Source: a virus | Virus record (IMG/VR): IMGVR_UViG_3300017593_000211 | Location: 1-34,858 of that record | Length of the DNA stretch: 34,858 bases | Reading direction: 5' to 3' (one strand) | In this document: piece by piece, positions 6,032 to 21,268 of the stretch | Numbering within the stretch: the first letter of the stretch is position 1 | Layout: the number at the start of each line of letters is the position of its first letter | Position numbers and translations under genes: made by a program | The notes under the pieces: model-generated | Told to the model about the DNA's origin: nothing | The model's input: the letters and a program-made list of their open reading frames with translations, nothing else | The model's database searches: none

Positions 6032-6730
6032 TTAAAAAAGATAAACTGTATTTCTAAACCGCCTTTCCAATTGTTGTAAAGTCCAGTCTGGTTTAAATTT
6101 ATTCCAACACTTACTGTCCAATTCCATCATCCGTGCCCATAAATGAGGATAAAAACGATAAATATTTTCTAAGTCTTTCATTCTCTTAAACGGACACCAA
6201 AAACAACCTGTGCGATTTATTTTTTCATATAATCCATTCCAATCAAAACCATAGCGGTAACATATCTTTAATGCTTCTTGGCCATCAATCCCAAATTCTA
6301 CAAGAGGGTAACTTTCTTGTTTACGATATTTCATTCTTTTTATTTCACTTGCACTTATTCCCATAAGTCTATGTATATTTTTTAATTGCTTTTTTTTAAA
6401 ATATGACCTTTCTAATAAATATTTAAAAAGTCTAGTGCACCACCTTAAATGCATCCGAGGCCATCCATAACCAGTATATCCCTTTCTAGTTTTGTGTTCA
6501 CACATCCAATATTCAAAATGTCTCTCAGGTTTTAAACAAGTTATTTCAACTCCAAGTTTCTTTTGAACTAAATTTATATGTGTATATATTTCTGGGAACT
6601 CCGCTCCAGTATCATTAAAAATGATTTCATCAAATGGTATTTGATTTTCTAATAGCACTATTAACATAGCAGTGCTATCTTTACCACCAGAAAAGAAAAC
6701 AACTCTATATGGCTTATTAGAGTTCGGCAT
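6032..6730 (-). CDS. PP-loop ATPase, PAPS-reductase/DndC-like
   Basis: The PP-loop SGGKDST (residues 14-20) adenylates a substrate in PAPS reductases, DndC-type sulfur enzymes and tRNA thiolation enzymes. Cysteines C98 (RWCTR), C157, C176 and C179 (GCFWCP) are spaced like the four ligands of an iron-sulfur cluster in DndC-like proteins, which favours sulfur transfer over simple sulfate reduction. The length (232) suits a stand-alone phage version. It is the last gene of the leftward operon; its ATG overlaps the preceding stop (TAATG), with AGAGGTAAGG upstream. Phage PAPS-reductase-like proteins are common and mostly uncharacterised. A part in DNA or RNA sulfur modification is possible but no partner dnd genes are in view. 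Confidence 0.85.
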   Translation of the reverse strand: MPNSNKPYRVVFFSGGKDSTAMLIVLLENQIPFDEIIFNDTGAEFPEIYTHINLVQKKLGVEITCLKPERHFEYWMCEHKTRKGYTGYGWPRMHLRWCTRLFKYLLERSYFKKKQLKNIHRLMGISASEIKRMKYRKQESYPLVEFGIDGQEALKICYRYGFDWNGLYEKINRTGCFWCPFKRMKDLENIYRFYPHLWARMMELDSKCWNKFKPDWTLQQLERRFRNTVYLF

Positions 6731-7224
6731 TAGACCTTACCTCTTTTAATCAATCTTCCACCACAAGCCTGAATTATCTGTATGAAATTTTCAGGTGTAA
6801 CTTTCCACGGTTTAATATGTGTCCAATCAAATATTTTTACGAGTGGTGCAATGCAACCCTCACTGCAAAAGTATTGTCCTTTCCTCTCCCTCCGCCACTT
6901 AGCAAACAAGCCAAGTCCAGCAACATAGTCAAACTTAGCTTTCTTTTCTACAAGCCCTAAGAAGAAGTTATGTATTACACAAACCTGTCCACTAGAAACC
7001 TCCAGACCCCATATTTCATACTCATCGCCTTTTTTGTATCCTTTAAATATCGGTCTAATATTCCATCTTACATTCAACAACTGATACCAATGCTCAGGCC
7101 AGCATTCTATTGTATGGTTGTCATCATAAAGATATGCAATATGGCTGTAATCTGATTGAGTTTCCCACTTAATTACCTTAGCTAGCCAATCAGTGCCTTT
7201 GTAGGCGAGGAATTTAATCAGCAT
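6730..7224 (-). CDS. Permuted papain-like hydrolase (YiiX/NlpC-P60 type)
   Basis: 164 residues with the order seen in circularly permuted NlpC/P60 enzymes: His first (H28 in SDYSHIAYLY), an acidic residue after (E40 in TIEC), and the Cys near the C-terminal third (C120 in QYFCSEGC), preceded by a FDYVAGLG helix. Such proteins act as amidases or peptidases on cell-wall peptides or lipids. It lies directly after the lipoprotein gene and near the end of the operon with the holin-like gene, so a lysis or wall-processing role is plausible. ATG at 7224 is preferred: the longer frame would need a TTG start at 7242, and GGGGG upstream is placed for 7224. Confidence 0.75.
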   Translation of the reverse strand: MLIKFLAYKGTDWLAKVIKWETQSDYSHIAYLYDDNHTIECWPEHWYQLLNVRWNIRPIFKGYKKGDEYEIWGLEVSSGQVCVIHNFFLGLVEKKAKFDYVAGLGLFAKWRRERKGQYFCSEGCIAPLVKIFDWTHIKPWKVTPENFIQIIQACGGRLIKRGKV

Positions 7225-7225
7225 T

Positions 7226-7600
7226 TTACAAAGCCCCCACAAACTTAATCATATAAGGCACTACCTTTTCTATTATATCTTTACCAACCAAAGAACCAAA
7301 CCTCTGCCACAGTCCTAATAACTTTCCTTTCTCACACTCCGTTAGTTCATCTACCGTTTTCCCTTTTGTTATTTGTTCAATTTCATCTAGTATATTCAAA
7401 GCTTCAGCAGGTAGCTTATTTATATCATCACCTAATGCTGCCTGCCAATAACAGGTAGAAAATTCACTATGTTCACATAAAACCTGAGCCAACTCATTAG
7501 CCTGTTTCATAAAACCTTCATATCCCTTTGTTATTTTACCCGTATGCCCAGCACAGCCTAGAAATACAAAACAAAGAAAAATAATGGATAATTTTTTCAT
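7226..7600 (-). CDS. Phage lipoprotein (possible outer-membrane lysis protein)
   Basis: The N-terminus MKKLSIIFLCFVFLGCAG is a classical signal peptide ending in a lipobox (FLGC), so the mature protein would be lipid-anchored at Cys 16. The remaining about 108 residues are helical and charged. ATG at 7600 is preferred to 7612 because GGAGGG lies four bases upstream of it. The size, lipobox and place beside a papain-like hydrolase resemble the outer-membrane subunit of a two-component spanin, but no paired inner-membrane partner is evident and the sequence is not a recognised spanin family. The lipoprotein call is strong; the lysis role is inference from context. Confidence 0.8.
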   Translation of the reverse strand: MKKLSIIFLCFVFLGCAGHTGKITKGYEGFMKQANELAQVLCEHSEFSTCYWQAALGDDINKLPAEALNILDEIEQITKGKTVDELTECEKGKLLGLWQRFGSLVGKDIIEKVVPYMIKFVGAL

Positions 7601-7612
7601 TTTACCCTCCAT

Positions 7613-7798
7613 TTAATCTTTAAAATATTTAATTAAATTAGTCAATCTTCCAAAGTTTTCACATAGTTTTAATAATTGTTTCATAAGTTTTTGACATTCC
7701 TCTGGGTCTTCTGTTTCAGAGCATCTAGTTCTAGCCTCCACTGCCCACTGCTTGATTAAAGTAGTAAGTCTTCTAGCTTCTATCTCTTGCTGGTTCAA
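7613..7798 (-). CDS. Small helical hypothetical protein (61 aa)
   Basis: Helical, charged protein with three cysteines (RCSETEDPEECQKL is the middle). Its frame opens with TTG three bases after the upstream stop; an in-frame TAA lies two codons earlier, and no ATG occurs until residue 39, so TTG is the only reasonable start. GGAGG lies about 12 bases upstream, longer spacing than usual. It fills the space between the radical SAM gene and the lipoprotein gene exactly. Function unknown. Confidence 0.55.
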   Translation of the reverse strand: MNQQEIEARRLTTLIKQWAVEARTRCSETEDPEECQKLMKQLLKLCENFGRLTNLIKYFKD

Positions 7799-7801
7799 TG
7801 G

Positions 7802-8488
7802 TTATCTAACCTCCAAATTATACTTTGGAAACTCTTTTGTAAATGCCTCCAAATCTTCTTTAGTATATTCATTTTTTTCTTTATAAAAAGGTGTTGGACG
7901 GGCTACCTGTAAACAAAGAAGGTGGTTTTGGCCAACTATATAAATAATCTTCTCTAAGTCTGTGAATGTCAATAAACTGCTATGCACGGTAGTTCTGAAT
8001 TCACAAGGAAGTTTAGCACTTTTAAGAAGAGTGACTGACTTTTTAACAGGTTCAATTGGGAGCTTGGTGTTGGTGACAGCTTGATATTTATCCCAAGGGG
8101 CTTTAATGTCCATAGCAATATAATCCACTAGTTTCTTTCTTATAAGCAAGGTCAACATAAAAGGCCTAGTGCCATTGGTATCCAGTTTTACCGCAAACCC
8201 CATATTCTTTAACCATGCACAGAAGGCAGGTAAGTCTTTATGTAAGGTAGGTTCACCACCAGTAATAACCACTCCATCAATAATCCGCTTCCTTGTTAAT
8301 AGAGATTTGTGGATTTTTTCGTAAGGAATGGAGGGCTGTAGACAATCTACTAATTGGAGATTGTGGCAATAAGGGCAACGAAAGTTACATCCTTGAGTAT
8401 AAATAACAGCAGATAAATGGTTAGGGAAGTCAATCGTGGAAAAAGGAGTAAATCCTCCAATATTTAGGTTAAATTCTTGCTGATTCAT
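7802..8488 (-). CDS. nrdG: Anaerobic ribonucleotide reductase activating protein (NrdG2-type radical SAM)
   Basis: Radical SAM enzyme. The cluster motif is C34-x3-C38-x2-C41 (GCNFRCPYCHN) and the SAM-binding GGEP motif is at 77-80. The opening GGFTPFSTIDFPNHLSAVIY matches the NrdG2 form of the activase, which installs the glycyl radical on class III ribonucleotide reductase NrdD so that deoxynucleotides can be made without oxygen. Length (228) is normal. The start ATG overlaps the phosphoesterase stop by ATGA. No nrdD is present in the window, so either it lies outside or this enzyme activates the host reductase or another glycyl-radical protein. Family call is strong, exact partner inferred. 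Confidence 0.85.
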   Translation of the reverse strand: MNQQEFNLNIGGFTPFSTIDFPNHLSAVIYTQGCNFRCPYCHNLQLVDCLQPSIPYEKIHKSLLTRKRIIDGVVITGGEPTLHKDLPAFCAWLKNMGFAVKLDTNGTRPFMLTLLIRKKLVDYIAMDIKAPWDKYQAVTNTKLPIEPVKKSVTLLKSAKLPCEFRTTVHSSLLTFTDLEKIIYIVGQNHLLCLQVARPTPFYKEKNEYTKEDLEAFTKEFPKYNLEVR

Positions 8489-9156
8489 AAAGTTTTAATT
8501 TCCACCTTACCTCTCTCAATCTCCAACCAGCTTCTACTATCTAACCAATCTCCACAATTAGCTAATTTCTGCCCTGTTTCCAATGTATGAATAGAGGGAT
8601 AATGGGTATGTCCTATAACCAATATCCTACACCAATCAGCTTTTTCTAAAAAAGAAAATGCTTCTGCATATATCTGTCCTATTTTTTCATGCCATTTTTC
8701 TCTATTTCTCTGCTTCCATTTAGAAGGTGGATTAAAAAACCATGGTGCAAATTTTGATAATAATTTCCAATCCCAGTGCTTGCATAGTGGGTCAAATTGA
8801 TAGCCATGCACAAATCCCATTCTGCCTATGCGGTAAAAAGGGAATGATTGTATTTCCATTCCTAATAATTCAGTTAGACTTTTCCCTAACTCTGGGTCAT
8901 GATTACCTTCAATAAAAACTGTTTGGGTTGCCTTTATAATCTTTTTTAATGCCTTTAATAACTCTTGTCCAATATAGCTATTTTTAATATCTTTAATATT
9001 ACATCTTACTAAATCTAAAATATCACCACAAAAAACAACCTTATCTGCCTTAGAAGCATAATCAGCAAAAGGAATGAAATATTGACTAGTATAAGGAATA
9101 TGAAGATCACTGATGCATATAATTTTTTTAGCCAACCTTATACCATCCTGAACCAC
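8485..9156 (-). CDS. Calcineurin-like metallophosphoesterase
   Basis: All signature blocks of the calcineurin-type two-metal phosphoesterase fold are present: SDLH (D17, H19), CGDILDL (D45), EGNHD (N85, H86), VHGYQFD (H117) and a C-terminal GHTHYP. The layout resembles LpxH-type UDP-diacylglucosamine pyrophosphatases and MPE proteins found in phages. The substrate cannot be deduced; nucleotides, DNA ends or lipid precursors are all possible. Start is GTG at 9156 with GGGGAGG about six bases upstream; it overlaps the end of the protease gene by 29 bases. It is coupled to the radical SAM gene that follows. Confidence 0.88.
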   Translation of the reverse strand: MVQDGIRLAKKIICISDLHIPYTSQYFIPFADYASKADKVVFCGDILDLVRCNIKDIKNSYIGQELLKALKKIIKATQTVFIEGNHDPELGKSLTELLGMEIQSFPFYRIGRMGFVHGYQFDPLCKHWDWKLLSKFAPWFFNPPSKWKQRNREKWHEKIGQIYAEAFSFLEKADWCRILVIGHTHYPSIHTLETGQKLANCGDWLDSRSWLEIERGKVEIKTL

Positions 9157-10114
9157 TCCAGCCTCCCCGTATTACATCTTCATTATGAACCAAAATTACA
9201 TCTTCAAATACGGCTGTAAAATCACCATAACTAACTTGGATGGTAGCACTTTCATCTTGAACCGTAGTTTGATAATCTCCCCAAAAAGAAGAACCCCAAA
9301 CGACATCCATTTGTTTTACTTCAATAGAAGAAACCCTTGGCGTAAAACCCTCATCTATTATATATTTTACCTTGCATATCACTCCTACTTTATCACTTCC
9401 AGCAAAGAGTAACCCAATAAAATTACCAGGGAAGTCTTGGTTATCAGGAAGCTTACATAAATGTTCAACCAATGGCCTATATACTCCAAAGTCAATATGA
9501 TTTACATTTTCTTGGAATGCTTGAAATCGTGTATTACGGTTAAATAAGCTCCAGATAAAATTTAGACATGCAACAATCCCTTTTGATATTTTACAGGGGC
9601 TTGGAGTAGTAGCGGGTTTAATTTGTTTATGCCAAATATATTCACCACAAATATTTTCTTCTGGTGTGCCTCCGTGATAAGGGCCCGGCTGATATATTCT
9701 TTTTTCTTTCACATCATTTGGGTTCATACCAGCATCAGGCGATATAACATGGGCATTACTTCCTACTACTATTTCATCAGCAACAAACATCATTCCCAAA
9801 GAACCAGCAGTTATATCATGATTACCCACAGATAAACCCAATAAGACAGGTCTAACCTTTTGCGTTCTATCAATATTTAAAGCTTCAACCTTACCAATCT
9901 CAATTACTTTAATTCTCATCCCCTTCACATACCGAGGAATAAGGTCTTGCTTTGATAAAAATTCTTCTTTCTCTTTCTTTCTAACATAAACAATTACAGT
10001 ATCCACCTTCTTGCCAAGTTGCTTATCAAAATACTGTATGATTTGATTGGAATGACCAATCACATTTTTTTTGCCCTTTACTTTGCTGTAAACTTTTTTA
10101 ATTTTCTTTTCCAT
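9128..10114 (-). CDS. Chymotrypsin-fold serine protease-like protein
   Basis: Resembles a family of trypsin-like proteins with the pattern G-x-S-V-G-x-x-x-x-T-A-G-S-L-G, then a His, then QPGPYHGG. Putative triad (numbering from ATG at 10114): H122 (SNAHVISPD), D208 (NHIDFGVYRP) and S320 in GGWSGSGW. The usual GDSG reads GWSG here, and the protein ends eight residues after the Ser, so the last strands are short. Activity is plausible but not assured. No signal peptide; the first 65 residues are lysine-rich. ATG at 10114 overlaps the holin-like stop (TGATG) with GGGGAGG upstream. It may process virion proteins or act in lysis; neither is shown by the sequence. Confidence 0.72.
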   Translation of the reverse strand: MEKKIKKVYSKVKGKKNVIGHSNQIIQYFDKQLGKKVDTVIVYVRKKEKEEFLSKQDLIPRYVKGMRIKVIEIGKVEALNIDRTQKVRPVLLGLSVGNHDITAGSLGMMFVADEIVVGSNAHVISPDAGMNPNDVKEKRIYQPGPYHGGTPEENICGEYIWHKQIKPATTPSPCKISKGIVACLNFIWSLFNRNTRFQAFQENVNHIDFGVYRPLVEHLCKLPDNQDFPGNFIGLLFAGSDKVGVICKVKYIIDEGFTPRVSSIEVKQMDVVWGSSFWGDYQTTVQDESATIQVSYGDFTAVFEDVILVHNEDVIRGGWSGSGWYKVG

Positions 10115-10371
10115 CACTTACCTCCCCAAAAAAATCCTTTAGTAAAAATGGCTAAAAAACCACCAAATGCTCCCCCTGCAAACGAAGTGGTCTTATACCA
10201 CCTTGTCTTTTTTTCTACTTTTTCTATTTTTTGTTCTATTTCTTTTTTATTATTTGTTATTTGAACACAAACAGCATCTATTTTTTTAGATAGGGCATTA
10301 AGCTCTTTATTTATATAAGTTGTATGCGTCTCCAATAAATCCTTTACATATTCCATTTCTTTATTGTTCAT
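10114..10371 (-). CDS. Holin-like protein (XhlA-type layout)
   Basis: 85 residues with a coiled-coil N-terminal half (residues 5-57, repeated NKE/KKIEKVEKK) and one glycine-rich hydrophobic segment near the C-terminus (about 62-80, SFAGGAFGGFLAIFTKGFF). This is the layout of XhlA/hemolysin-type proteins that sit in the inner membrane and help release endolysin. A strong AAAGGAGA ribosome site precedes the ATG. The position just after the giant virion protein and before other late genes fits. Primary sequence similarity to XhlA is weak, so the holin role is inferred from topology and context. Confidence 0.65.
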   Translation of the reverse strand: MNNKEMEYVKDLLETHTTYINKELNALSKKIDAVCVQITNNKKEIEQKIEKVEKKTRWYKTTSFAGGAFGGFLAIFTKGFFWGGK

Positions 10372-10383
10372 GGCTAATCTCCT

Positions 10384-13300
10384 TTACAGACCATAATTTA
10401 ATAATCCTGTTGTGGATTTTGGCCTTGTAAAAGACTGTATTTCTTTAGTCTTTTTTCTTTTTAAAAATTCATACTTTGCTCGTCTTTTAGCATAACGCAA
10501 ATATCTTGTTAGCTCCTTTGGTGTCATTTTCAAAAGAAGGTCTAGCTGGTCTTCATCGTTTAAAGCACTAAAAACTCTAATGTCAGGTGCTAACCTTATA
10601 GTCTTCCAGAACCTTTTACTTAAAACTATATTCTTCTCTTTCACTTCTTTTAAAGTCTCTACAAACTCAGCCCAAGCCTTCTTTCTTCTTTCAGGGTCAT
10701 GATGATTTTCTGCAACCCAAAGCAAGCTTCTTAACTGTGCTTTGATTTGATTTGTTTCATATTTTTCTCCACGCTTTTTAATTCCTTGAAACCGCTTAGA
10801 ATATAAATTGTAAATTTCATTTTGAATTTTTGTCCTTGTTATATAACGAGGTGCAACGCCTATACCTAAAATAGGTAGAATGCTTTTTTCTCCACTGATT
10901 TTTTCATGCCGTATAAAATTAGCAATTGAAATTGGGACTAAACCGCTTGTGCCCAAAAATACAGCGACTTGCTCTGCCTGTTTAAGCAATGGTGCATTGG
11001 GGTCTCTTATTTCTGTTTTGAAATAGTCTTGATTGGTAAACAAATCCAAAGTTAAACTAATTACTGGATTTAATTTATGCCAAGCAACAGTAGATATTCC
11101 TTTAAAAATTCCATGCTTTTCTAATGCAGCTTTAGCAACCCAGTATTCTTTAGTCATTGCAGGCAATTGTAATCTCTCATCACTTCCATCAGGGTTTTTC
11201 TCGCCCGTTTTAGGATAGAAATAATCTAACAATTCTTGAGGGGGTTTTCCTGTAAAAAGATAACACATTAATCCGCCAATCATTCCAACTACAAAAGGAT
11301 ATGTAATAGAGAATTGTATCCTGCCAGCCCACAAAGGCATTTTCTTTTTCATAATAGCTTCTTTAATGTCAAGACCTGCTCCTCCCCATTCTCTTATAGT
11401 CCCTAATTGCCAACTTAACGATAAAGAACTTGCTACCGCCAAATCTCTTATAGTTCTATTCCAGAAAAGATTATCATAAACCATCTGCCCAAAATTATTA
11501 TCCATACTATCCCATATCTTTTGTAATGCCTTATCCAGCTTTGCTCCTTTTATTTCTGGATGTGCTGATGTAAAATCTTTTGCTTGCTTTAAAAAAGCTC
11601 CTATTTTCAATCTAGGCACATACCATTCCATAAGAGGTGCTTGTATTTTCTCAGCAATAGCTGGAATTAATTTAATAGTTCCTCCTATAATGTTTTTCTT
11701 TCTAAAATCTCTTATTGCTTTCTTCCAGTTATCTTCAAGCCCTATTTTGTAAGCCTTAGAAAGTTTATATCTTGCACCTGCCCTTATTAAATAATTTACA
11801 ATTTCTTTGTCTAAATCAGTTTGGATGCTTCTCTTGCCAAGCCAAAGCTCAACGGCTTTATGCCCTAATTTAAGAGAAGAAACGGGGCCAGTTAAAATAT
11901 CTGCAAAACGGTCTAAAGCAACGTCAATATCTCCTTTTAAAGTGCTGTTTGTAAGCCTCATTACATTATAAGTTAAGTCTGATAAAGTAACATTCAAAAA
12001 GTGAAACCCGCTAAGACCAAGTTTAACAGCGACAAAAGGATTTTTGACTGCCATAAATGCTTTGAAAACCTTACCCCAATTATCTGGCCGAGACCATAAA
12101 GAAGGAGAAAGCCATTTATCTACTATGTTGGCAGCTTCTTTGGGCATTATCCATTCGCCTGTCCGCACCATTCCCTCTTTGCCTCTAAAGAAGACTTGAA
12201 GGGATGGGTCTTTAGGAACTGCCCAGCCTTTTGGTGGTTTTTTAAAACCTCTTTTAAATTTCAAAAGTTCATATGCTTTCATTTCATTAAGAAAGTCTTT
12301 CCGCATCTTATGATGAAGTGCACTGAAATATCTCCAAAGAACCATCTCTTGGGGATTGGTAGTAATAGGTTCTAGTCCTGCTTTAATTCCATCACTCATT
12401 AACTTATAAAATTTATGTTTATAATACCCTGGTGTGGTATTTAACTTTTTCTGTATCCATGCTTCTGCTTTTTCTCTGTTTTTCCATATTCCAGGCCAAT
12501 AATTTTCTAAATAATCAAGCCTTTCATTAACGCTCTTATCTATCTCATAAGCTTTATCAAGCAAAGCACGGTGCTGTTGAGCCATGTCTTTAACAACTTT
12601 ACTATCTTTACCAAACTCAGAAAAATCCGTATCACCTTTCATCATCTTATCAATATAAAGTATCTGCTTATCTACAGGCTGTCTGTCCCACCATTCATGA
12701 GAGATTTTTGTTGCTTCTACAATGGCATCAATCTCTCTTGCTCTTTCTGCCATTAATCTTCTAGCAGATATTCTAACCATTGCAGCAGGTTCTTCAGGTG
12801 TAAATATTTTATCTACTTCTCCTGTTTTCTTAGCTATATCCTTTGTAATTACAGGTTCTTTTTTTACTTCTTTTTTTAGTCCTTCCTTTGCCTTTATTCT
12901 TTCAAGATATTCCTTAGCCCAAGCAATGCGTTTTGAATATTCCTCTATAGGTTCTCCTAAACGATATTCAGGAATTTGTCTTAATCCCCAAATCTCATTC
13001 GCTTCTGCATGAATATTAGTTGCCTGTCGTATAGTTGTCCCTGAAAACGCGGCATCAGTTAAAATATTCTTACGGATTAACTCAGTAGAGGTATTGTATA
13101 AATCTTTGGTTTCTTCATATTTACCACTAAAAACAGCAAAGACATGATTTGTGCCAAATTCTCTGACACGCCCCCTTATATAATTTGTTATTTGTTCAAC
13201 ATTAGTAAATAACCTAGCAGGGACTTCCTGTATAAGTCTAATCTTATTACCTGAACAATATATCAATGTTACAACCTTAGAATCGTCTTTAAAGCTGCGG

Positions 13301-16300
13301 CTAATTAACGCCAAGTCTTTTTCTGTTTTTATTTTAAAACCTAACAATCCATGAGGTTTTGTTGGAGATAATAAAGGGTCAACCCAATCTTTAGGAATGC
13401 CTGGTAAGGGCAAAACATAAGCAACTCCATCTTCTCTAATTGCACCATATTTACCAGAATTTATTATAATGTGATGCTTTAACCCTGGTATTTTATCTGC
13501 ACAAGCCAATGTAAAATTTATATCATCTAAAGAAGGAGAGGGATTACCACTGGGATGGTTATGCACTAGATAGTATCCATCAGCCCCAAGCCTTTTCATT
13601 CTATTTTTAATTTCCCATATAAATTTAGGAGTAAGCTCACTTGCAACAAAATTAGGCATTCTATTTGTTATGCCTTCATGAGCAACTATTTTATTACCCT
13701 TCATATAGAATATTCTTAAAGTTTCAAATCTTGGGTCACGATAGACTTGAGCTACAACTGCCAAATCAGCGGGATGTTTAATTTCTTTACTTCTTAAATC
13801 TACTCTGCCTGTTTTGATAAGGTCTTTGCGTATTCCTTCGGCAATTGTTTTAATTCCGCCACCTTCCTTTGCTGGTTCTGCTTTTTCAGAAACTGGAATA
13901 AACTTTGGTGGCTTAGGAATAAACCATTCCAGTCCCTGTAATTCATTAAGGATTTCTTTTCTTGTTTTTGATGCTGTTTCTTCATAATCTTTATCCCTTA
14001 CTATATATTCTTCTCCATGTTCATGAACTTTAATTGTTTTTTCAGGTTCAGGCTTCTTTTCTACAATTTCTTTTTGAGCAAACTTTTTTGCTTCTTCTAA
14101 GGAGTTGAAAAACTTTGTTTCAATGCCCTTGTTAATAGTTACTTTCTTTCCTTCGTATGTAGTTTCATAAGGCTCAAATCTTACAACTCTCCATTGCTCT
14201 GTTTCTGGGTCTTCTTTGATTTGATACCATGTCTTTTTCTCTGGATGACGCACTTCATATAAATTTTCTTTGGGTTGAGTTATTATAGGTTCTTTCTCTT
14301 TAACTTCCGCTTTTGCTTCTTTAACAAGCTTAACCTCTTTCTCTGCCTTAATCCAGTATTCTGCCCTAGATGTCCAAGGCATATATTTTGTTTTGCCTTC
14401 TGGAGTTTTTACTCTATGATAAACAAAGCCTGTTTTACGCTTCCCTATTTTACCTGTAGCTATTCCTTCCCCTTCCTTGCCTCTATATCTCCATTTGACA
14501 TGAGTTCCTTCGGTTATTTCTTTGCCGTAATTCTTTACTGGTTGCCATTCGGTTTCTGCTTTAGCAACTTCCTTACCCTTTTCTTCAAAAGACCGTGGAA
14601 ATAACTCTCTTGCTCTTTTCTCACTTAAACTAGCCCAAGTAACCTTACCTGTGTTTTTATCCACCAGCTTAACCACATAATCAACACCAAGCCTATGTTC
14701 AGGAAATTCCTCACTGGCTTTACTTAATTCAATGGGATAAGAATTTTCATAAAGTGTCTTAGTTAAAGGCACTACTGAAGGTTTTTCTTTGGGAGGTTCT
14801 TTCTTATACTTCTTTGCTAAATCGGGATATTCTTTTAATACTTCTTCGGGAACGGGCTTGTTTTGTTTGAGGTTTTGTTCAATTTGTTCTTTATGTTTAT
14901 CAAGATAATTACGTAGCCAAGCATCCCCTAATTTACTTGCTTCTATTGCTCTTTTTTGATGAAGTTTTTGATATTTTCCTTTGTATCGTAGTAAATTAAC
15001 TGCCCAATCTTCAGGAATACCTTTTATATGTGCAAATTCATGCAATAAACTATATATTGCATTTATCTTATCATTGTCTATTTTTAACACTTTAGTTAAT
15101 ATATCAGGTTTTGTATCAAGATTTAAATAAATTTTATTTCCTGTTTTATCATAAAATGTAGGAGTTTTACTTTGTCTATTAGAATATATTATTATTTTAA
15201 CATCTGGAAATTGTGGATTTATTTCTTTTGCATTTATCTCAATTGTTTTATTATTATTTCTTACTTGTTCAATATGCGGAGTAATTTTTTTAATATAGCT
15301 ATCTTGTTTATTAACAAATTCCTCCTTCGTCATTTCCCAAGGTTCTTTTTTAGCTTTAACCTCTGGCAAAGCCTTTTCCTTCTTACCTTCTTCAACTATC
15401 TGCTTCTGGCGTATTTCAGCCATTTCTTTTTGCAGTTCTGGATGCTCTTTCCAGATTTTCATCCACTCTGCACTACCAGGTTCAACACCTTCGTAAGGCT
15501 TGGCTTTCTTTTCAGGCTTAGGCTTTTCTTTGACTTCTTTTGCTGGAGGCTTCTCTTCAGTAACTTTCCTTTCTTCTCTAGCCTTTTCTTTTTTTACTTC
15601 ACCTTCAGGAACTATAATCTCTCTCTTTCTTTCTTCAGGAGCTGTCTCAATTTTTGGTTTTTTTTTGCCCTTTTCATACCTTTCTAAGGTTAATTTTTCT
15701 TCAGCGGTTCTAAGGAATGCTGGCTTGGCCTGTATCCGTGCTATTTCAGCAGGAACTCCTTCAGGTGCTACAATTTCTTTTGCAGGAGGTTTTTCTTCTT
15801 CTCCCAATACAACAGGTCTTTCTTCTTTATAAGGCTTCTTTTCTGGTTCTACTACTGGTCTTTTAGGCAATAACTCAGCAACATTAACACGCTCTGGTGG
15901 GGGTTTGGCCTGTTCTTCTATAATAAGTTTGTTAATCTCATCATCCAGTCCTAGCCTTTGTATTTCGGGATGTTCTTTTAATGCAAATAACTCATCAATA
16001 CCAAAGGAATTACCAGCTTCATCCCTACCCCTAGCCAAGTCTCTTTTAACCGCAGTTATAATAGCTTCCCTTGCTCTTTCTGGTTCTACAACTTCTGCTT
16101 CTGGTCTTTCAACTTCTTTTGCAGGAGATTTCTCTTTTGGAGGTAATGTAGTTTCCTTTATTTCTTTAACTGCCTGCCTTACTTCTGGTCTTAATTTTTC
16201 ATTGGTAGAAAGAGCATCAAACTCTTTTTCTATATCTTCAAAACGGCCTTCTCTGTAAGCCTTCTCTATATTTCTTTGAGCTTTATTAAGTATAGTCCTT

Positions 16301-17121
16301 TCTATGCCTACTTGAGTTTTTTTAGCTAGCCAAGGTAGCATAGAAAATAACGTCCCTAAGGCCATGCCATGAGCAACGCCTTCTTCTATTTCTTCTTTAG
16401 TCGGTAATCTTCCTTCTTTAGATGCCTGATAAGTAGCTTCGGCTGCACCTAAAGCTCCAAACTTAGGTATTTGATACCTGCCTCCTAATCTTCCATAGAT
16501 AACTCCCCATGCTAAATTTTCAGCTCCTTTCTTTAAGGCACTAATTGTTCTTTCTGGGATAGTTTCTCCTTCTTTAGCTCCTGCGATAGCACCTCTTATC
16601 CCCATTCCCACTGCAAAATCAGGTATTCTAGATAATATTTCTGCTACCCTAGGAATAACCCTGCTACCTAAAGACAATTTAGTAGCACCACCTGTCATAA
16701 CATCTAGAGGAAGAGTAGTTCCAAGACTTCCCAAAGTTTCCATAAATTTATATCCTACTTTTTCCAGTTTACTTTTGGGTTGAGTTTCCTGCCTTATTTT
16801 TTGAATTTTTCTTTCAGCAGGTTTAACAAGCCGACTTTCAGGAGAAAAACCTAAAAGCCTATTGATACTGGTTGCTGTTTCTAAAGCCCCTGCATAAAAT
16901 CTTTTAGCTAATCCTTTTACAAAATCCCTTTGCTCTTTTTCAGGGAAAGTAGCCCAAGGTTTCATTGCGGTAAACGCTGCTTTTTCTAAAACTCCTTCTT
17001 TTTGTTCAGAAGCAAAGGGGTCATAATCAACAGGAACTAATTTAAGCCCCTGTGTTTCTGATGGTTGTGCGGGTTGCTTTGTTTCTTCAAAAGGGTCGTA
17101 ATCAACTGGAGTTAATGGCAT
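10384..17121 (-). CDS. Giant polyvalent virion protein with HExxH and JAMM/RadC-like domains (2245 aa)
   Basis: Mosaic protein, probably packaged and ejected with the DNA. Residues 5-11 and 30-36 repeat PVDYDPF. Residues 140-260 are Gly/Ala-rich and hydrophobic. Residues 325-600 are Lys/Glu/Pro-rich linker with repeated KPPAKE. H694-E-F-A-H698 is an HExxH zinc-peptidase signature. Residues about 1115-1230 form a JAB/MPN domain of RadC type: E1149, H1187-x-H1189, D1200 (VHNHPSGNPSPSLDD). Residues about 1600-1930 include MDNNFGQMVYDNLFWNRT, typical of the large polyvalent-protein domain LPD38, followed by a hydrophobic segment at 1940-1957. The C-terminus is helical and basic. It plays the part of the large internal proteins of podoviruses; that role is inference from size and place. 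A strong AGGAGAG site precedes the ATG. Confidence 0.88.
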   Translation of the reverse strand: MPLTPVDYDPFEETKQPAQPSETQGLKLVPVDYDPFASEQKEGVLEKAAFTAMKPWATFPEKEQRDFVKGLAKRFYAGALETATSINRLLGFSPESRLVKPAERKIQKIRQETQPKSKLEKVGYKFMETLGSLGTTLPLDVMTGGATKLSLGSRVIPRVAEILSRIPDFAVGMGIRGAIAGAKEGETIPERTISALKKGAENLAWGVIYGRLGGRYQIPKFGALGAAEATYQASKEGRLPTKEEIEEGVAHGMALGTLFSMLPWLAKKTQVGIERTILNKAQRNIEKAYREGRFEDIEKEFDALSTNEKLRPEVRQAVKEIKETTLPPKEKSPAKEVERPEAEVVEPERAREAIITAVKRDLARGRDEAGNSFGIDELFALKEHPEIQRLGLDDEINKLIIEEQAKPPPERVNVAELLPKRPVVEPEKKPYKEERPVVLGEEEKPPAKEIVAPEGVPAEIARIQAKPAFLRTAEEKLTLERYEKGKKKPKIETAPEERKREIIVPEGEVKKEKAREERKVTEEKPPAKEVKEKPKPEKKAKPYEGVEPGSAEWMKIWKEHPELQKEMAEIRQKQIVEEGKKEKALPEVKAKKEPWEMTKEEFVNKQDSYIKKITPHIEQVRNNNKTIEINAKEINPQFPDVKIIIYSNRQSKTPTFYDKTGNKIYLNLDTKPDILTKVLKIDNDKINAIYSLLHEFAHIKGIPEDWAVNLLRYKGKYQKLHQKRAIEASKLGDAWLRNYLDKHKEQIEQNLKQNKPVPEEVLKEYPDLAKKYKKEPPKEKPSVVPLTKTLYENSYPIELSKASEEFPEHRLGVDYVVKLVDKNTGKVTWASLSEKRARELFPRSFEEKGKEVAKAETEWQPVKNYGKEITEGTHVKWRYRGKEGEGIATGKIGKRKTGFVYHRVKTPEGKTKYMPWTSRAEYWIKAEKEVKLVKEAKAEVKEKEPIITQPKENLYEVRHPEKKTWYQIKEDPETEQWRVVRFEPYETTYEGKKVTINKGIETKFFNSLEEAKKFAQKEIVEKKPEPEKTIKVHEHGEEYIVRDKDYEETASKTRKEILNELQGLEWFIPKPPKFIPVSEKAEPAKEGGGIKTIAEGIRKDLIKTGRVDLRSKEIKHPADLAVVAQVYRDPRFETLRIFYMKGNKIVAHEGITNRMPNFVASELTPKFIWEIKNRMKRLGADGYYLVHNHPSGNPSPSLDDINFTLACADKIPGLKHHIIINSGKYGAIREDGVAYVLPLPGIPKDWVDPLLSPTKPHGLLGFKIKTEKDLALISRSFKDDSKVVTLIYCSGNKIRLIQEVPARLFTNVEQITNYIRGRVREFGTNHVFAVFSGKYEETKDLYNTSTELIRKNILTDAAFSGTTIRQATNIHAEANEIWGLRQIPEYRLGEPIEEYSKRIAWAKEYLERIKAKEGLKKEVKKEPVITKDIAKKTGEVDKIFTPEEPAAMVRISARRLMAERAREIDAIVEATKISHEWWDRQPVDKQILYIDKMMKGDTDFSEFGKDSKVVKDMAQQHRALLDKAYEIDKSVNERLDYLENYWPGIWKNREKAEAWIQKKLNTTPGYYKHKFYKLMSDGIKAGLEPITTNPQEMVLWRYFSALHHKMRKDFLNEMKAYELLKFKRGFKKPPKGWAVPKDPSLQVFFRGKEGMVRTGEWIMPKEAANIVDKWLSPSLWSRPDNWGKVFKAFMAVKNPFVAVKLGLSGFHFLNVTLSDLTYNVMRLTNSTLKGDIDVALDRFADILTGPVSSLKLGHKAVELWLGKRSIQTDLDKEIVNYLIRAGARYKLSKAYKIGLEDNWKKAIRDFRKKNIIGGTIKLIPAIAEKIQAPLMEWYVPRLKIGAFLKQAKDFTSAHPEIKGAKLDKALQKIWDSMDNNFGQMVYDNLFWNRTIRDLAVASSLSLSWQLGTIREWGGAGLDIKEAIMKKKMPLWAGRIQFSITYPFVVGMIGGLMCYLFTGKPPQELLDYFYPKTGEKNPDGSDERLQLPAMTKEYWVAKAALEKHGIFKGISTVAWHKLNPVISLTLDLFTNQDYFKTEIRDPNAPLLKQAEQVAVFLGTSGLVPISIANFIRHEKISGEKSILPILGIGVAPRYITRTKIQNEIYNLYSKRFQGIKKRGEKYETNQIKAQLRSLLWVAENHHDPERRKKAWAEFVETLKEVKEKNIVLSKRFWKTIRLAPDIRVFSALNDEDQLDLLLKMTPKELTRYLRYAKRRAKYEFLKRKKTKEIQSFTRPKSTTGLLNYGL

Positions 17122-17134
17122 CTTTCTCTCCTAA

Positions 17135-17902
17135 CTAATCAATTCTATACCATTTCCCTTCTCTTTTAACATACCAATTTCCATCAGGTGCTTTCTTTGC
17201 ATCTGGATAGCGTTTAAGCACTTCCTCATCACTAAGTTGCCGAGTAGCAGGAGTTTGTTCAGTAACAGGTTGTTCAATACCAGTAGTTGTAGGTGTCTTT
17301 TTAGGCACATATTCTAAAAGAGGACGTGCTATCCCAGTTTCATGCTCAAATACATAAACATCAGGTATACCAGTTGGGTTAGGAACTTCAACAATTGAAT
17401 ATTTACCTTTTCTTTGTCCTTGCTGTTTCGCCAGTGTTTTATAATAATCTGCAATTGCTTTTTTCTCCATTTCGGACAATTCCAACTTTTTCCGTTCTAA
17501 TCCTTCAGACCAATCAGTTCCGTATAAAGCCTCAATTCTTCTTCTTTCAATGCCCTGTGGCCCCCAGCGTAAAGCACGCTCTGCTGCCTTTCCTGCTTCT
17601 ATCATTGCTTGGCGCCTTGTAGCTTCTTTTTCTCTTTCCATCAATCCTTTTTGGCTTAACCGCTCCCGAGCAAGTTCGTATTCGCCTCTTATCCGTCCAT
17701 AAGTAGGATATTCTTGGGCCTGCAATTCCTTTATTCTGTATTTTTCTTGAAGCCATTTATTCCAATCAATTTTATCTAAAGAAGATGGGAATTGTATATA
17801 GCTAGGCAAGGAAGTTCCATACGAGCTAGTGCCCTGCGATAACCTTGTTGGTGCTTGTCCTCCTGCTATTCTCCATTTTTTTGTCCTATATTCAAACGGC
17901 AT
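17135..17902 (-). CDS. Putative internal virion protein (255 aa)
   Basis: Not recognised as a named family. The middle (residues 45-165) is helical and charged, with Arg/Glu/Lys runs. Around residue 200 is a Thr/Pro-rich linker (KKTPTTTGIEQPVTEQTPAT). The C-terminus ends APDGNWYVKREGKWYRID, a small WY-repeat unit seen in phage structural proteins. It starts after a strong GAGGAGGG site and stands just upstream of the giant protein in the transcript, so it may be a companion ejection or tail-knob protein. Function is inferred only from position. Confidence 0.7.
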   Translation of the reverse strand: MPFEYRTKKWRIAGGQAPTRLSQGTSSYGTSLPSYIQFPSSLDKIDWNKWLQEKYRIKELQAQEYPTYGRIRGEYELARERLSQKGLMEREKEATRRQAMIEAGKAAERALRWGPQGIERRRIEALYGTDWSEGLERKKLELSEMEKKAIADYYKTLAKQQGQRKGKYSIVEVPNPTGIPDVYVFEHETGIARPLLEYVPKKTPTTTGIEQPVTEQTPATRQLSDEEVLKRYPDAKKAPDGNWYVKREGKWYRID

Positions 17903-17904
17903 TT

Positions 17905-18867
17905 TTATCCCTCCTCGTAAAAACTAATTGGGGCTAATCTCCAATCTTGTGAAAAATTTTTATCATCCTCCCATGTCTGGGATGTTTTAGAGCTACCAAC
18001 ATTTTTTAATATAGTTGCCCTTTCCCCTTTCTCATAATTAAAAAAATCGGTTGGAGTAATTTCTTCTGTTTGATGTCTTCTCTGTATTTTATATCTATAA
18101 TAATCTTTAAATACATCTGGCTCTATTACTTCTTTAATTCTTCCACTGCTATAATATACCGTATCCATCCAGTTTCCACTGAACAAAAACGGATTGCTTT
18201 CTTGGCTTCCCCAAGGCAAATTAGGGAATATTCTAACTCCTAACCCTAAAAACTCTCCAGGCACAGGCCATTTTATTTCTTTATTCTCTGTTATAAAATA
18301 TCTTAGCCACCAATGAGGGTTCTGTGGTTTTGGAACTCCTGCAACTTGAGGAGCTAAAGGTATAACATTTTCACTTGCTATCCACATCTGATTAAATAAT
18401 ACTCTATTCTCGCCAAATCCTTGGAAAAGACGATAGGGAATAGGTGGAACAGGCATATTATTCCCCTTTTTAACTTGAATGTCCTCTCTAGTAGAAGAAT
18501 ACTCTCCAATAATACCTAGCATTTCAATATCACCAAAAGGCATTCCACCAAGAAAATCTATCCATCCTATTGTTAAATCGGGCTTATCTGGAATATGAAA
18601 AGAAAAATCATTGCTATATGTGGGGAATTCATAACAAGCCATAAACAACTTTTTTTCATTATTTATTACAACGGGACTTACTTGTAACTCACTAAACATC
18701 GTATCCAAGCTACCCTCTGCTTCCTGTAAAATAAAATCAAGTGCAGGCTCATCAAAAATAAACCATGTAGCTTCCAAGTATGGTGCAAATATACCTACTT
18801 GAGCATATATATTAACTGCTTCATGTATAAGGTCTTCAAATGCTTCGTCAAATTCTTCTTCTGGCAT
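17905..18867 (-). CDS. Uncharacterised structural-region protein (320 aa)
   Basis: Mixed alpha-beta protein rich in aromatic residues and Pro, with segments such as NPHWWLRYFI and FPNLPWGSQESNPF. No catalytic motif, signal peptide or membrane segment. It starts two bases after the upstream coiled-coil gene's stop and is followed two bases later by the next gene, so it is translated as part of the tail-side cluster. A virion component is likely from context; no closer identity can be supported. Confidence 0.72.
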   Translation of the reverse strand: MPEEEFDEAFEDLIHEAVNIYAQVGIFAPYLEATWFIFDEPALDFILQEAEGSLDTMFSELQVSPVVINNEKKLFMACYEFPTYSNDFSFHIPDKPDLTIGWIDFLGGMPFGDIEMLGIIGEYSSTREDIQVKKGNNMPVPPIPYRLFQGFGENRVLFNQMWIASENVIPLAPQVAGVPKPQNPHWWLRYFITENKEIKWPVPGEFLGLGVRIFPNLPWGSQESNPFLFSGNWMDTVYYSSGRIKEVIEPDVFKDYYRYKIQRRHQTEEITPTDFFNYEKGERATILKNVGSSKTSQTWEDDKNFSQDWRLAPISFYEEG

Positions 18868-18869
18868 CT

Positions 18870-20045
18870 TTACACACTCGCCTGTTGCACTATTCTTTGT
18901 TCTAATTTTTCGCTATGAGATACTATACCACGGATTTGATGTTTAGCCGCCCATTTCCTAGCTTCATTAAGCAGAATTTCATCATCAATTTTCCGTTTCA
19001 TAACTTCAATATCAGCCAATGATAACTGCTCTAAAAGTTCTTTTTGTTTTTCCACTTCACTATCTCTAATAGTTTCTTCTTGTTCTATTGCTGAAATTTG
19101 CTGGCCTTTTTCATGTTCAAATATCTCTCTTTCTTTTTGCTGTTCTAAAATCCTTTGATTTTCTATACTTTCTTTTATTTCCTGCAATGCAGTCACTTCT
19201 TCTAAGAGATTATTCCTTTCACTTTCATTTTCTTTTTGCTGTAATATTCTTTGTTGTAATAATTCTAATTCAACTTTTAATCGGTTAGTAATCCTATCAA
19301 ATGCTTTATCTATTTCTCTCCTACGAACTTTATACTTAGTTCTTGTAAGTTCTCTAGTCACTATTTCAGCAAATGTAGAAGCTATATCTGCTGCTAACCT
19401 AGCTCTGGTAACTTCTACCATTGCCTTTTCAACTTCGGCCTGTGTTTTCCTGTTTTCAGCTTCTACAACTCTTATATCAGCCAAAACAGCATTCGTCTTT
19501 GTTCTTTCAACATCCAGCAAGGCTTTTAAGACATCAAGCTCAACCAGTTTTTTCCTTATTTTTTCCGTTTCTATTTCTATATCCAATTCTTCTAGTCTTA
19601 TATCTGTCCTGTCACGCTCAACTTCATATCTTGTTTGTTGATAACTTTTTTCTGCCTCACCAACCAATCTCGCTGCAACAAATTTAGCATCCATCATAAG
19701 CCTTTGAACTTCCAGACCATACTGCAATGTCTGCAATATATAATTATTGGTTTGCCTTTGTAAAGCTAATATCTTTCTTCTATTTTCAGCTATGGCATCA
19801 ATATTTGTTTTATCAGTATCAATAGCTGTATATTTATATTCAATAGTTTTTTGTAATTGCTCTTGCTTTCTATCAAAAACATCATCAATGACTATTAAAA
19901 ATGTTTCAATACCAGGCAGTCCAGTTTTGTTAATATTTTCTTCCCAATGCTCTAAATAATTATTGATGCCCATATAATTTAAGTTAATCAGCCTTGTCCA
20001 TATTGCACTATTTCTTTCTTTTGCTCTATTTTTTTCTTCTGTCAT
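18870..20045 (-). CDS. Long coiled-coil virion protein (391 aa), candidate ejection protein
   Basis: Nearly all residues from 50 to 375 form charged helices (for example LEELDIEIETEKIRKKLVEL, and repeated Gln/Glu-rich heptads near residues 265-330). No enzyme motif, signal peptide or membrane segment. A short folded N-terminal part (about 1-50) contains WTRLINLNYMGINNYLEHWE. It follows a similar all-helical protein encoded immediately upstream. Two consecutive long helical proteins before a giant protein resemble the set of internal core or ejection proteins in podoviruses such as T7 gp14-16 or P22 gp7/16/20, but there is no recognisable sequence match. Confidence 0.72.
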   Translation of the reverse strand: MTEEKNRAKERNSAIWTRLINLNYMGINNYLEHWEENINKTGLPGIETFLIVIDDVFDRKQEQLQKTIEYKYTAIDTDKTNIDAIAENRRKILALQRQTNNYILQTLQYGLEVQRLMMDAKFVAARLVGEAEKSYQQTRYEVERDRTDIRLEELDIEIETEKIRKKLVELDVLKALLDVERTKTNAVLADIRVVEAENRKTQAEVEKAMVEVTRARLAADIASTFAEIVTRELTRTKYKVRRREIDKAFDRITNRLKVELELLQQRILQQKENESERNNLLEEVTALQEIKESIENQRILEQQKEREIFEHEKGQQISAIEQEETIRDSEVEKQKELLEQLSLADIEVMKRKIDDEILLNEARKWAAKHQIRGIVSHSEKLEQRIVQQASV

Positions 20046-20047
20046 CT

Positions 20048-21268
20048 TTATACCTCTGCACTCACTGCTTTAATCTTCTGAGTGATTACAGTCCAGCGTC
20101 CAACTCGTTGTATTGTCCAAGCACAATCCCTAATCCTTTGGTCGGTAGAATTAGCCAATTCTATTAGTTTTGCTATTTGTTCAGTCGTAGCAGATTGGCT
20201 TAAAGCAATTCTTTTCTCTTTTATTTCATTTTCATCTTCTACACGAATATCCAGCTTTTTAATATAGTTGTCCAATTGAGTAGTGATTTTTTCTTTAGCC
20301 AATTCAGTGCGTAATTCTAAAATGGTATCAGTATTTTCTTTGGATAGCTGAGATAAAACAGTCTGCATATGAGCTTTAGCTATACTTAAAGCATTGGCTG
20401 CCTTAATATAATTTAAACGGGCTATTTCCAATTCTTTCTCTTTTTCTGCCCTTTCAATCTCTGCGTTAGCTTGAGCATCTTTTAAATCTGTTTCTTTATA
20501 TCCAAGTTTTATTAAAAGTTCTTTCCATTTTGCTTCATTTATAATAGCATCAGCTAACTCTTGTCTTTTTTCTGCCAGTTTTAAATAATCTGGAATTAGT
20601 CCTTTTTTTAATAAAGCTATTTCTTTTTCTATCTCTAAAACTATTTTTAAAGCCTCTGCCCTTCTTTTTTCGGCAGCAATTACCAATGCCTCTGCATCAA
20701 TAGCTTGCTGTAATGGCTCTATTAGTTTCATTTTTTCTTGAGCAGTTTCCATTTTTGCCTCAGCAAGCTGTAATTCCTTATCAAGTGTCTCTCCTCTTAA
20801 ACTTTCTATTTTCTGCCTATATTCCCATATTTCACTATCAATTTGAGCCTTAAACTCAATCAACTCTGCATTTCTTTTATTTATTTCAGTTTCTAACCTT
20901 CTAATATAGTCTTTGCCTAATTTAAAATCTTCTTCTAATTTTGAGGCTTCCCATTCTAAAGCATTTAAAACCCACTGCTTATATAATTCAAATTCAAGTC
21001 TGGCATAATTAACTGCAAGATTTAAACTAAACTCGTCTATATCATATTGTATTTGCCTTTCTTCATTATAAGTTTGTGCATTGGCTTCTGTTAAAGCCTT
21101 TTTGGTTTGTTTAGCCATTTCAATTATACCAGCAAGCATATTCCCAGGGATAAAAGTAAATCCCCGTGCAGCCATTGCTGATATTACTTTTTTATAGCCA
21201 TCATCAAACTCTTTTACTTTACCTTCTTTTTTTTGTAGCCATCTGTAATGTTCTGCGTCCGTTGCCAT
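20048..21268 (-). CDS. Long coiled-coil virion protein (406 aa), candidate ejection protein
   Basis: A folded N-terminal segment (residues 1-70, containing AMAARGFTFIPGNMLAGIIE) is followed by about 280 residues of charged helix with many EKE, AEA and KLI heptads, and a compact C-terminal end with WTIQRVGRWTVI. No catalytic or membrane motif. Same build and size as the adjacent 391-residue protein, although direct sequence similarity is not obvious, so they may be paralogues that have drifted or simply functional partners. Position between the fibre gene and the giant protein supports a virion or ejection role. Confidence 0.72.
   Translation of the reverse strand: MATDAEHYRWLQKKEGKVKEFDDGYKKVISAMAARGFTFIPGNMLAGIIEMAKQTKKALTEANAQTYNEERQIQYDIDEFSLNLAVNYARLEFELYKQWVLNALEWEASKLEEDFKLGKDYIRRLETEINKRNAELIEFKAQIDSEIWEYRQKIESLRGETLDKELQLAEAKMETAQEKMKLIEPLQQAIDAEALVIAAEKRRAEALKIVLEIEKEIALLKKGLIPDYLKLAEKRQELADAIINEAKWKELLIKLGYKETDLKDAQANAEIERAEKEKELEIARLNYIKAANALSIAKAHMQTVLSQLSKENTDTILELRTELAKEKITTQLDNYIKKLDIRVEDENEIKEKRIALSQSATTEQIAKLIELANSTDQRIRDCAWTIQRVGRWTVITQKIKAVSAEV

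Follow-up and report, generated by a model that had tools for sequence, protein, structure and literature searches.

The window analysed here, a complete IMG/VR record of 34,858 bases with 35% GC, carries on its minus strand one uninterrupted frame of 2245 codons, whose length and position agree with the original prediction, in which the strand was left unstated. The giant gene closes a cluster of virion genes for capsid, SU10-type adaptor, head closure, tail fibre and two long helical proteins. The arrangement of the window is identical across 20 kb in a second record, L002. The open reading frame, its two ends and its upstream neighbours are as follows.

10384-17121, minus strand: ORF of the 2245-residue giant protein (P0001); same sequence in IMG/VR contig 3300017593_000582 (L002)
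17135-21268, minus strand: four upstream late genes, with two long helical proteins (391 and 406 aa), from gene order and sequences
17014-17121, minus strand: N-terminal repeat PVDYDPF, residues 5-11 and 30-36, present in four of four close relatives
16186-16926, minus strand: N-terminal residues 66-312, with homology to the giant proteins L117 and L103
10387-12804, minus strand: C-terminal part (residues 1440-2245), with conservation in the giant proteins L060, L061, L086, L038 and L067/L164

The PVDYDPF repeat was absent from the other giant ORFs examined and is possibly a packaging or targeting tag; the roughly 450 residues that follow it are only 26-28% identical to those of L004 and L005. 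Residues 66-312 matched L117 and L103 with phmmer E-values of 4e-42 and 3e-39, and according to Pfam both of these proteins carry ddrB-ParB and RadC. The Lys/Glu/Pro-rich (K/E/P) linkers that had been predicted are borne out, as these three residues make up 44-64% of most 50-residue blocks between residues 400 and 600. The four upstream late genes gave no family matches but form a plausible ejection-protein cluster. The position of the giant gene resembles that of ejection proteins in short-tailed phages, and from this position we infer that the protein is present in the virion and ejected with the DNA.

Several other genes were seen in the neighbourhood, all on the minus strand. A gene near the giant protein (9128-10117) matches PHROG 20754 'protease' (E 5e-28), and its product could act in trans on the giant protein. 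Behind the giant gene follow genes for PAPS-reductase-like, QueE-like radical SAM and calcineurin-like phosphoesterase proteins (6032-9156), a block that perhaps serves nucleotide or DNA modification. The tail gene cluster contains a subtilase (25469-27037; Pfam Peptidase_S8, E 3e-50) with an intein/Hint segment at residues about 343-489, and a tail-fibre-like protein (22888-24651) combines a chitin-type carbohydrate-binding module (CBM_5_12) with a beta-helix.

Between the linkers and the JAB domain described further below, two slots and their contents were distinguished.

14803-15345, minus strand: slot 1, residues 593-773, different or absent in L003, L004 and L005 by DNA and protein comparison
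15316-15342, minus strand: socket head PWEMTKEEF, residues 594-602
14917-15282, minus strand: HExxH domain inside the socket, residues about 614-735, a candidate zincin and sequence orphan
15028-15042, minus strand: HEFAH, residues 694-698, read from the translation
14818-14895, minus strand: socket tail HKEQIEQNLKQNKPVPEEVLKEYPDL, residues 743-768
14287-14766, minus strand: pair of small domains that separate the slots (residues 786-945), DNA 90-94% identical in L004/L005
14281-14331, minus strand: slot 2 joint, residues 931-947, empty in the window and filled in L003, L005 and L004
14047-14289, minus strand: small module, residues 945-1025, with a second copy in slot 1 of L004

The HExxH motif is indeed found at residues 694-698, as the original prediction had it. 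By itself the motif is weak evidence: HExxH was present in 5.7% of shuffles of this protein, and together with its hydrophobic context in 0 of 5000. Downstream of it, E704 (HEFAHIKGIPE) is by analogy a candidate for the third zinc ligand. Searches for relatives of the domain gave no meaningful E-value in deposited phages, plasmids or the PDB, and in viral contigs none beyond the socket ends. A motif scan (HE, a hydrophobic residue, AHIKG) found one further viral protein, L185, of weak similarity, which served solely to seed the two-row alignment for an AlphaFold2 model of the domain. This model was poor (pLDDT 54.7) and has the order helix, three strands, helix, the same order that is given for zincins of polyvalent proteins in PMC5512222. 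Its best Foldseek match, with an E-value of 0.46, was not significant, yet the first nine matches were all zincins (selecase, Wss1). We regard the domain as a likely, though putative, zincin. Two sets of possible relatives were rejected. Socket matches that reach into the domain (L053, L063, L040 and L093) are without HExxH and were judged compositional, and an HEMLH domain in L005 does not align with the domain of the window and therefore represents a separate cassette.

The contents of the slots differ between sister phages. Window and L003 share more than 20 kb, over which their DNA is about 96-97% identical. In slot 1, L003 has 144 unrelated helical residues in place of window residues about 590-773, L004 has an extra copy of the small 945-1025 module, and L005 is empty (KKEEALPEAKPEKEPPKEKPPVVPLTKT). 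In slot 2, L003 has 288 residues added near residue 931 (L003:12707-13570), L005 has about 207 residues, and L004 has other sequence. The 288-residue insert shows YRGE and FFTTS motifs and is ART-like by eye; Pfam found no match in it, and a partial relative occurs in L029 (phmmer E 8e-16). The HEMLH domain of L005 lies at a third position, where L004 has none, and the L003 protein has no HExxH anywhere. The C-terminal parts of the window and of L004/L005 do not match. A duplicated linker flanks the slot-1 insert of L003 (residues 578-594 of the giant protein match L003 731-747), which suggests recombination between K/E/P linkers. The L003 protein is encoded in one open frame of 2504 codons on a 59-kb contig with colinear flanking genes; all four alleles compared are from metagenomic contigs, and that of L004 carries a frameshift. 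The comparison marks the HExxH domain as a cassette that can be exchanged: between sister phages the content of a slot is swapped or missing.

These swaps bear on what the HExxH domain might do. One possibility is self-processing: as a protease, the domain could divide the polypeptide into separate units, either ahead of packaging or once injected. This is the favoured general role for polyvalent proteins in PMC5512222, DdrB of phage P1 is processed before packaging, and the linkers around the HExxH domain would be accessible. However, L003 is about 97% identical elsewhere and does without HExxH altogether, which is hard to reconcile with an enzyme that processing depends on; L005, whose HExxH lies at another position where L004 has none, likewise speaks against this role. 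The objection would lose force if a second protease, such as the neighbouring phrog_20754 'protease' or the subtilase, acted in trans. We regard self-processing as unlikely overall and, because L003 is without HExxH, prefer with moderate confidence an effector role of the domain over obligatory processing.

The ends that enclose the HExxH domain, PWEMTKEEF and HKEQIEQNLKQNKPVPEEVLKEYPDL, belong to a recurrent bracket, PWEMTxEEF ... GKPVPxEVLxxYPDL. A scan for PVPxEVLxxYPDL in IMG/VR found at least 119 stretches of viral contigs, and among the matches listed there were 112 distinct sockets in 108 ORFs. The ORFs among these listed matches had a median length of 1535 aa and in 83 of 108 cases at least 1000 aa, with many ending at contig or locus edges. 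In the same matches, W.MT stood at most 320 residues upstream in 68 of the 112 tails versus 0.6 in shuffles, and insert length ranged from 14 to 258 residues in the 59 sockets with a stricter head, where the longest spacings could reflect missed intermediate heads. The insert of L014 is a GNAT domain above the Pfam cut-off, and the sole insert to pass a curated cut-off. HExxH also occurs within socket inserts of L035 and L086, and inserts of L034, L073, L046 and L105 were labelled ART-like or ParB-like from motifs judged by eye. Pfam searches of the scanned socket proteins showed no family at the bracket, and the motif strings were not found in the literature searched; PMC5512222 may list the socket among its supplementary domains, with an LPD number. 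A similarity search with the socket consensus, which differs in method from the IMG/VR motif scan and its at least 119 stretches, matched one of 50,697 deposited phage genomes. This match, Methanosarcina virus MetMV (L190:2818-11826), encodes a 3003-residue protein with socket head and HELTH, and the kind therefore reaches archaeal tailed viruses. Plasmid matches to the consensus were 'strawberry notch' and methylase proteins. A further giant ORF (L009:7685-13066) carries an SLT transglycosylase at its N-terminus and at least two sockets, of which one is almost empty.

We tentatively suggest that the bracket, in its extended form PWEMTxEEF ... H..V..AL.EGKPVPxEVLxxYPDL, might be a general unnamed plug-in socket of phage-delivered giant proteins. 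Zincin, GNAT, ART-like and ParB-like enzymes might be exchanged via this socket and via slots in the K/E/P linkers, with the injected repertoire evolving much like polymorphic toxins, mostly in uncultivated phages. The socket motif offers a sequence handle for new injected enzymes in viral metagenomes.

Downstream of the slots lies a fixed part with two JAB domains, in which the following features were recognised.

13390-13782, minus strand: RadC-type JAB domain, residues 1114-1244 (Pfam PF04002, partial TIGR00608, AlphaFold2 model, Foldseek match to 2QLC)
13723-13725, minus strand: E1133, at the N-terminal end of strand beta1 and the likely glutamate of the JAMM/RadC metal site, E in 44 of 44 aligned homologues
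13675-13677, minus strand: E1149, the originally predicted glutamate, poorly conserved (E in 18 of 45)
13522-13563, minus strand: HNHPSGNPSPSLDD, comprising H1187, H1189 and D1200; both histidines, S1197 and the aspartate invariant in 45 homologues
13015-13347, minus strand: residues 1259-1369, a second copy of the JAB that has no metal ligands, from AlphaFold2 secondary-structure order and hhalign

The Pfam RadC match of the first domain clears its gathering cut-off (E 1.9e-6, 28.2 versus 22.1 bits), and RadC 2QLC was retrieved by phmmer. The NCBIfam TIGR00608 alignment covers residues 1125-1233 with 36 bits, below the whole-protein cut-off of 133.85 for RadC family proteins. Structure prediction had been proposed as a check on both enzymatic domains. 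The model of the HExxH domain was, as described, not confident, but that of residues 1095-1425 showed a confident JAB fold (mean pLDDT 85.5), albeit with a different glutamate than expected. The best Foldseek match of this model was again RadC 2QLC (E 9e-8, TM-score 0.76 over the target), with PfJAMM1 in complex with SAMP2 (5LDA, E 2.5e-4) as runner-up. H1187, N1188, H1189, S1197 and D1200 are unchanged across 45 homologues, and a JAMM-like HxHx7SxxD occurred in 0.02% of shuffles of the giant protein. Thus, of the JAMM set in the original prediction, H1187, H1189 and D1200 hold, whereas E1149 was dropped for E1133 on the basis of their conservation. In RadC-like domains a glutamate is located at the N-terminus of strand beta1 (PMC11981726), and E1133 (position 39 of the modelled fragment) lies just ahead of strand 40-47. 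E1133, not E1149, is probably the JAMM glutamate, and the domain would accordingly have a full metal site of E1133, H1187, H1189 and D1200 that is expected to bind zinc and support catalysis. The JAB family, retrieved with a profile built from six proteins, comprises 38 viral loci and 15 loci in bacterial metagenome-assembled genomes (MAGs), the viral members lying mostly within ORFs of more than 1000 aa.

In the AlphaFold2 model the helix/strand order of the first JAB recurs in residues 1259-1369, and hhalign aligned this stretch to the first JAB with an E-value of 1.4e-4 and a probability of 53%, compared with 0.3-0.6 for unrelated controls. The second copy reads FSGKYE at the HNHPSG position, and sequence aligned to this dead copy was found in most members of the JAB family. 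Stand-alone proteins of about 319 aa with both JAB domains occur in Clostridia and related MAGs (L174, L177, L183), and the JAB pair therefore forms a unit. On a Nitrosomonas conjugative plasmid (L191:2895-6918) a two-JAB gene adjoins the gene for an ArdC-type zincin, the latter assigned from its N-terminal sequence by eye. By analogy with the MPN-minus partners of MPN-plus enzymes, the dead copy may hold the substrate in position.

The assignment to RadC alters the picture of two metal-peptidase signatures that had been drawn originally, as RadC-type JABs are without demonstrated peptidase activity and the literature examined describes no biochemical activity of RadC. It had also been suggested that the JAMM domain removes conjugated proteins, and the JAB could accordingly be an isopeptidase that takes off ubiquitin-like tags added by host defence systems. 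The full set of JAMM ligands would fit such an enzyme, as would the second fold match to PfJAMM1 with SAMP2, and a DALI search with another RadC-like domain also retrieved JAMM proteases (PMC11981726). Against this, the domain is nearest to RadC in both sequence and fold, and the RadC clade is argued, in PMC5512222, to lack the groove for a ubiquitin tail, its predicted targets being nucleic acids or nucleotides. For this reason the stripping of conjugated proteins is not specifically supported, and together with the want of a described RadC activity this makes the isopeptidase reading doubtful.

The reading of the giant protein as a phage polyvalent protein is supported by its late position among virion genes and by homologues of its modules that carry ddrB-ParB, LPD38 and RadC. 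Several unrelated domains lie in one chain, as expected for this class: the RadC-type JAB and other modules, with the HExxH domain as candidate second enzyme. Iyer et al. (2017, PMC5512222) reported RadC only from polyvalent proteins of conjugative elements and LPD38 only from phage-type ones. The JAB pair of the giant protein is, however, shared with L126, which has RadC and LPD38 in one chain, and L103 and L117 combine RadC with ddrB-ParB; RadC therefore belongs to phage-type proteins too. An LPD38-type segment, which had been predicted in the giant protein itself, was sought in three ways and not accepted. Neither Pfam LPD38 (PF18857) nor a local LPD38 profile built from relatives matched the protein at E <= 10, and a profile-profile comparison was suggestive at most (probability 36%, single-comparison E 4e-4).

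On balance, we favour the explanation that the giant gene encodes a phage-type polyvalent protein in which the constant N- and C-terminal parts form a carrier for several exchangeable cassettes in series, connected by K/E/P linkers. This carrier would probably sit in the phage head and leave it together with the DNA. In slot 1 it bears the HExxH domain within its socket; this domain is most likely a protease of the zincin type, whose target would be a host protein and not the carrier itself. Slot 2 has no insert here, and the fixed part carries the RadC-type JAB backed by its dead copy. The enzymatic domains might instead be neutral or decaying passengers on a protein that is mainly a structural scaffold of the ejection channel, given that sisters share constant N- and C-terminal parts and that ejection proteins serve as channels in short-tailed phages (PMC9509320). 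This seems rather improbable, since the inserts are in frame and resemble intact domains, and the JAB ligands, invariant in 45 homologues, are therefore under selection. Misassembly, with similar linkers from different phages being joined, is a very improbable source of the allele differences: the four genomes are all metagenomic, the linkers are repetitive and L004 is frameshifted, but the window arrangement recurs unchanged over 20 kb in L002, L003 has its single 2504-codon frame on a 59-kb contig with colinear flanks, and sockets with different inserts recur in more than 100 other cases among the matches listed.

The dead JAB copy and the exchangeable HExxH cassette are the two most informative features, and both were absent from the original prediction. 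If exchange is confined to the slots and the carrier itself is kept, a comparison of sister phages amounts to a natural single-domain swap for each effector; such a comparison isolates each effector domain, and the role of an injected domain for the phage would therefore be directly testable. The RadC-type JAB, for its part, now has a phage context and a consistent dead second JAB.

Compared with known systems, the first JAB resembles RadC / UPF0758 proteins (PF04002, TIGR00608; 2QLC) in its HNHPSGxxxPSxxD motif, the glutamate ahead of strand beta1 and the JAB fold. Unlike those proteins, it is without the remaining RadC architecture (36 bits against a TIGR00608 cut-off of 134) and is embedded in a giant protein, where a dead JAB copy follows. 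The pairing of an active with an inactive JAB recalls the MPN-plus/MPN-minus JAMM pairs (Rpn11-Rpn8, BRCC36-KIAA0157), a likeness that is structural only, as both JABs here are RadC-type and stand in tandem in one chain. The HExxH domain has its motif preceded by predicted strands, as in ArdC and other zincins of polyvalent proteins, but no sequence similarity to any plasmid-borne or solved zincin was found. Phage-type polyvalent proteins, as described by Iyer et al. (2017, PMC5512222), share with the giant protein its size, its many domains and its late position among virion genes, as well as HExxH, RadC and ART-like modules and the occurrence of homologous modules alongside ddrB-ParB and LPD38. 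RadC, which that paper reports only from conjugative elements, was found here within a phage gene cluster and on 38 viral contigs, and neither the bracket socket nor the fast slot-by-slot exchange was found in the sections of the paper examined. Polymorphic toxin systems (PMC3482391) likewise exchange effector cassettes on constant delivery parts; there, however, a single C-terminal toxin tip is replaced, no immunity gene was seen with the giant protein, and the exchange described here concerns several internal slots of a virion-linked protein.
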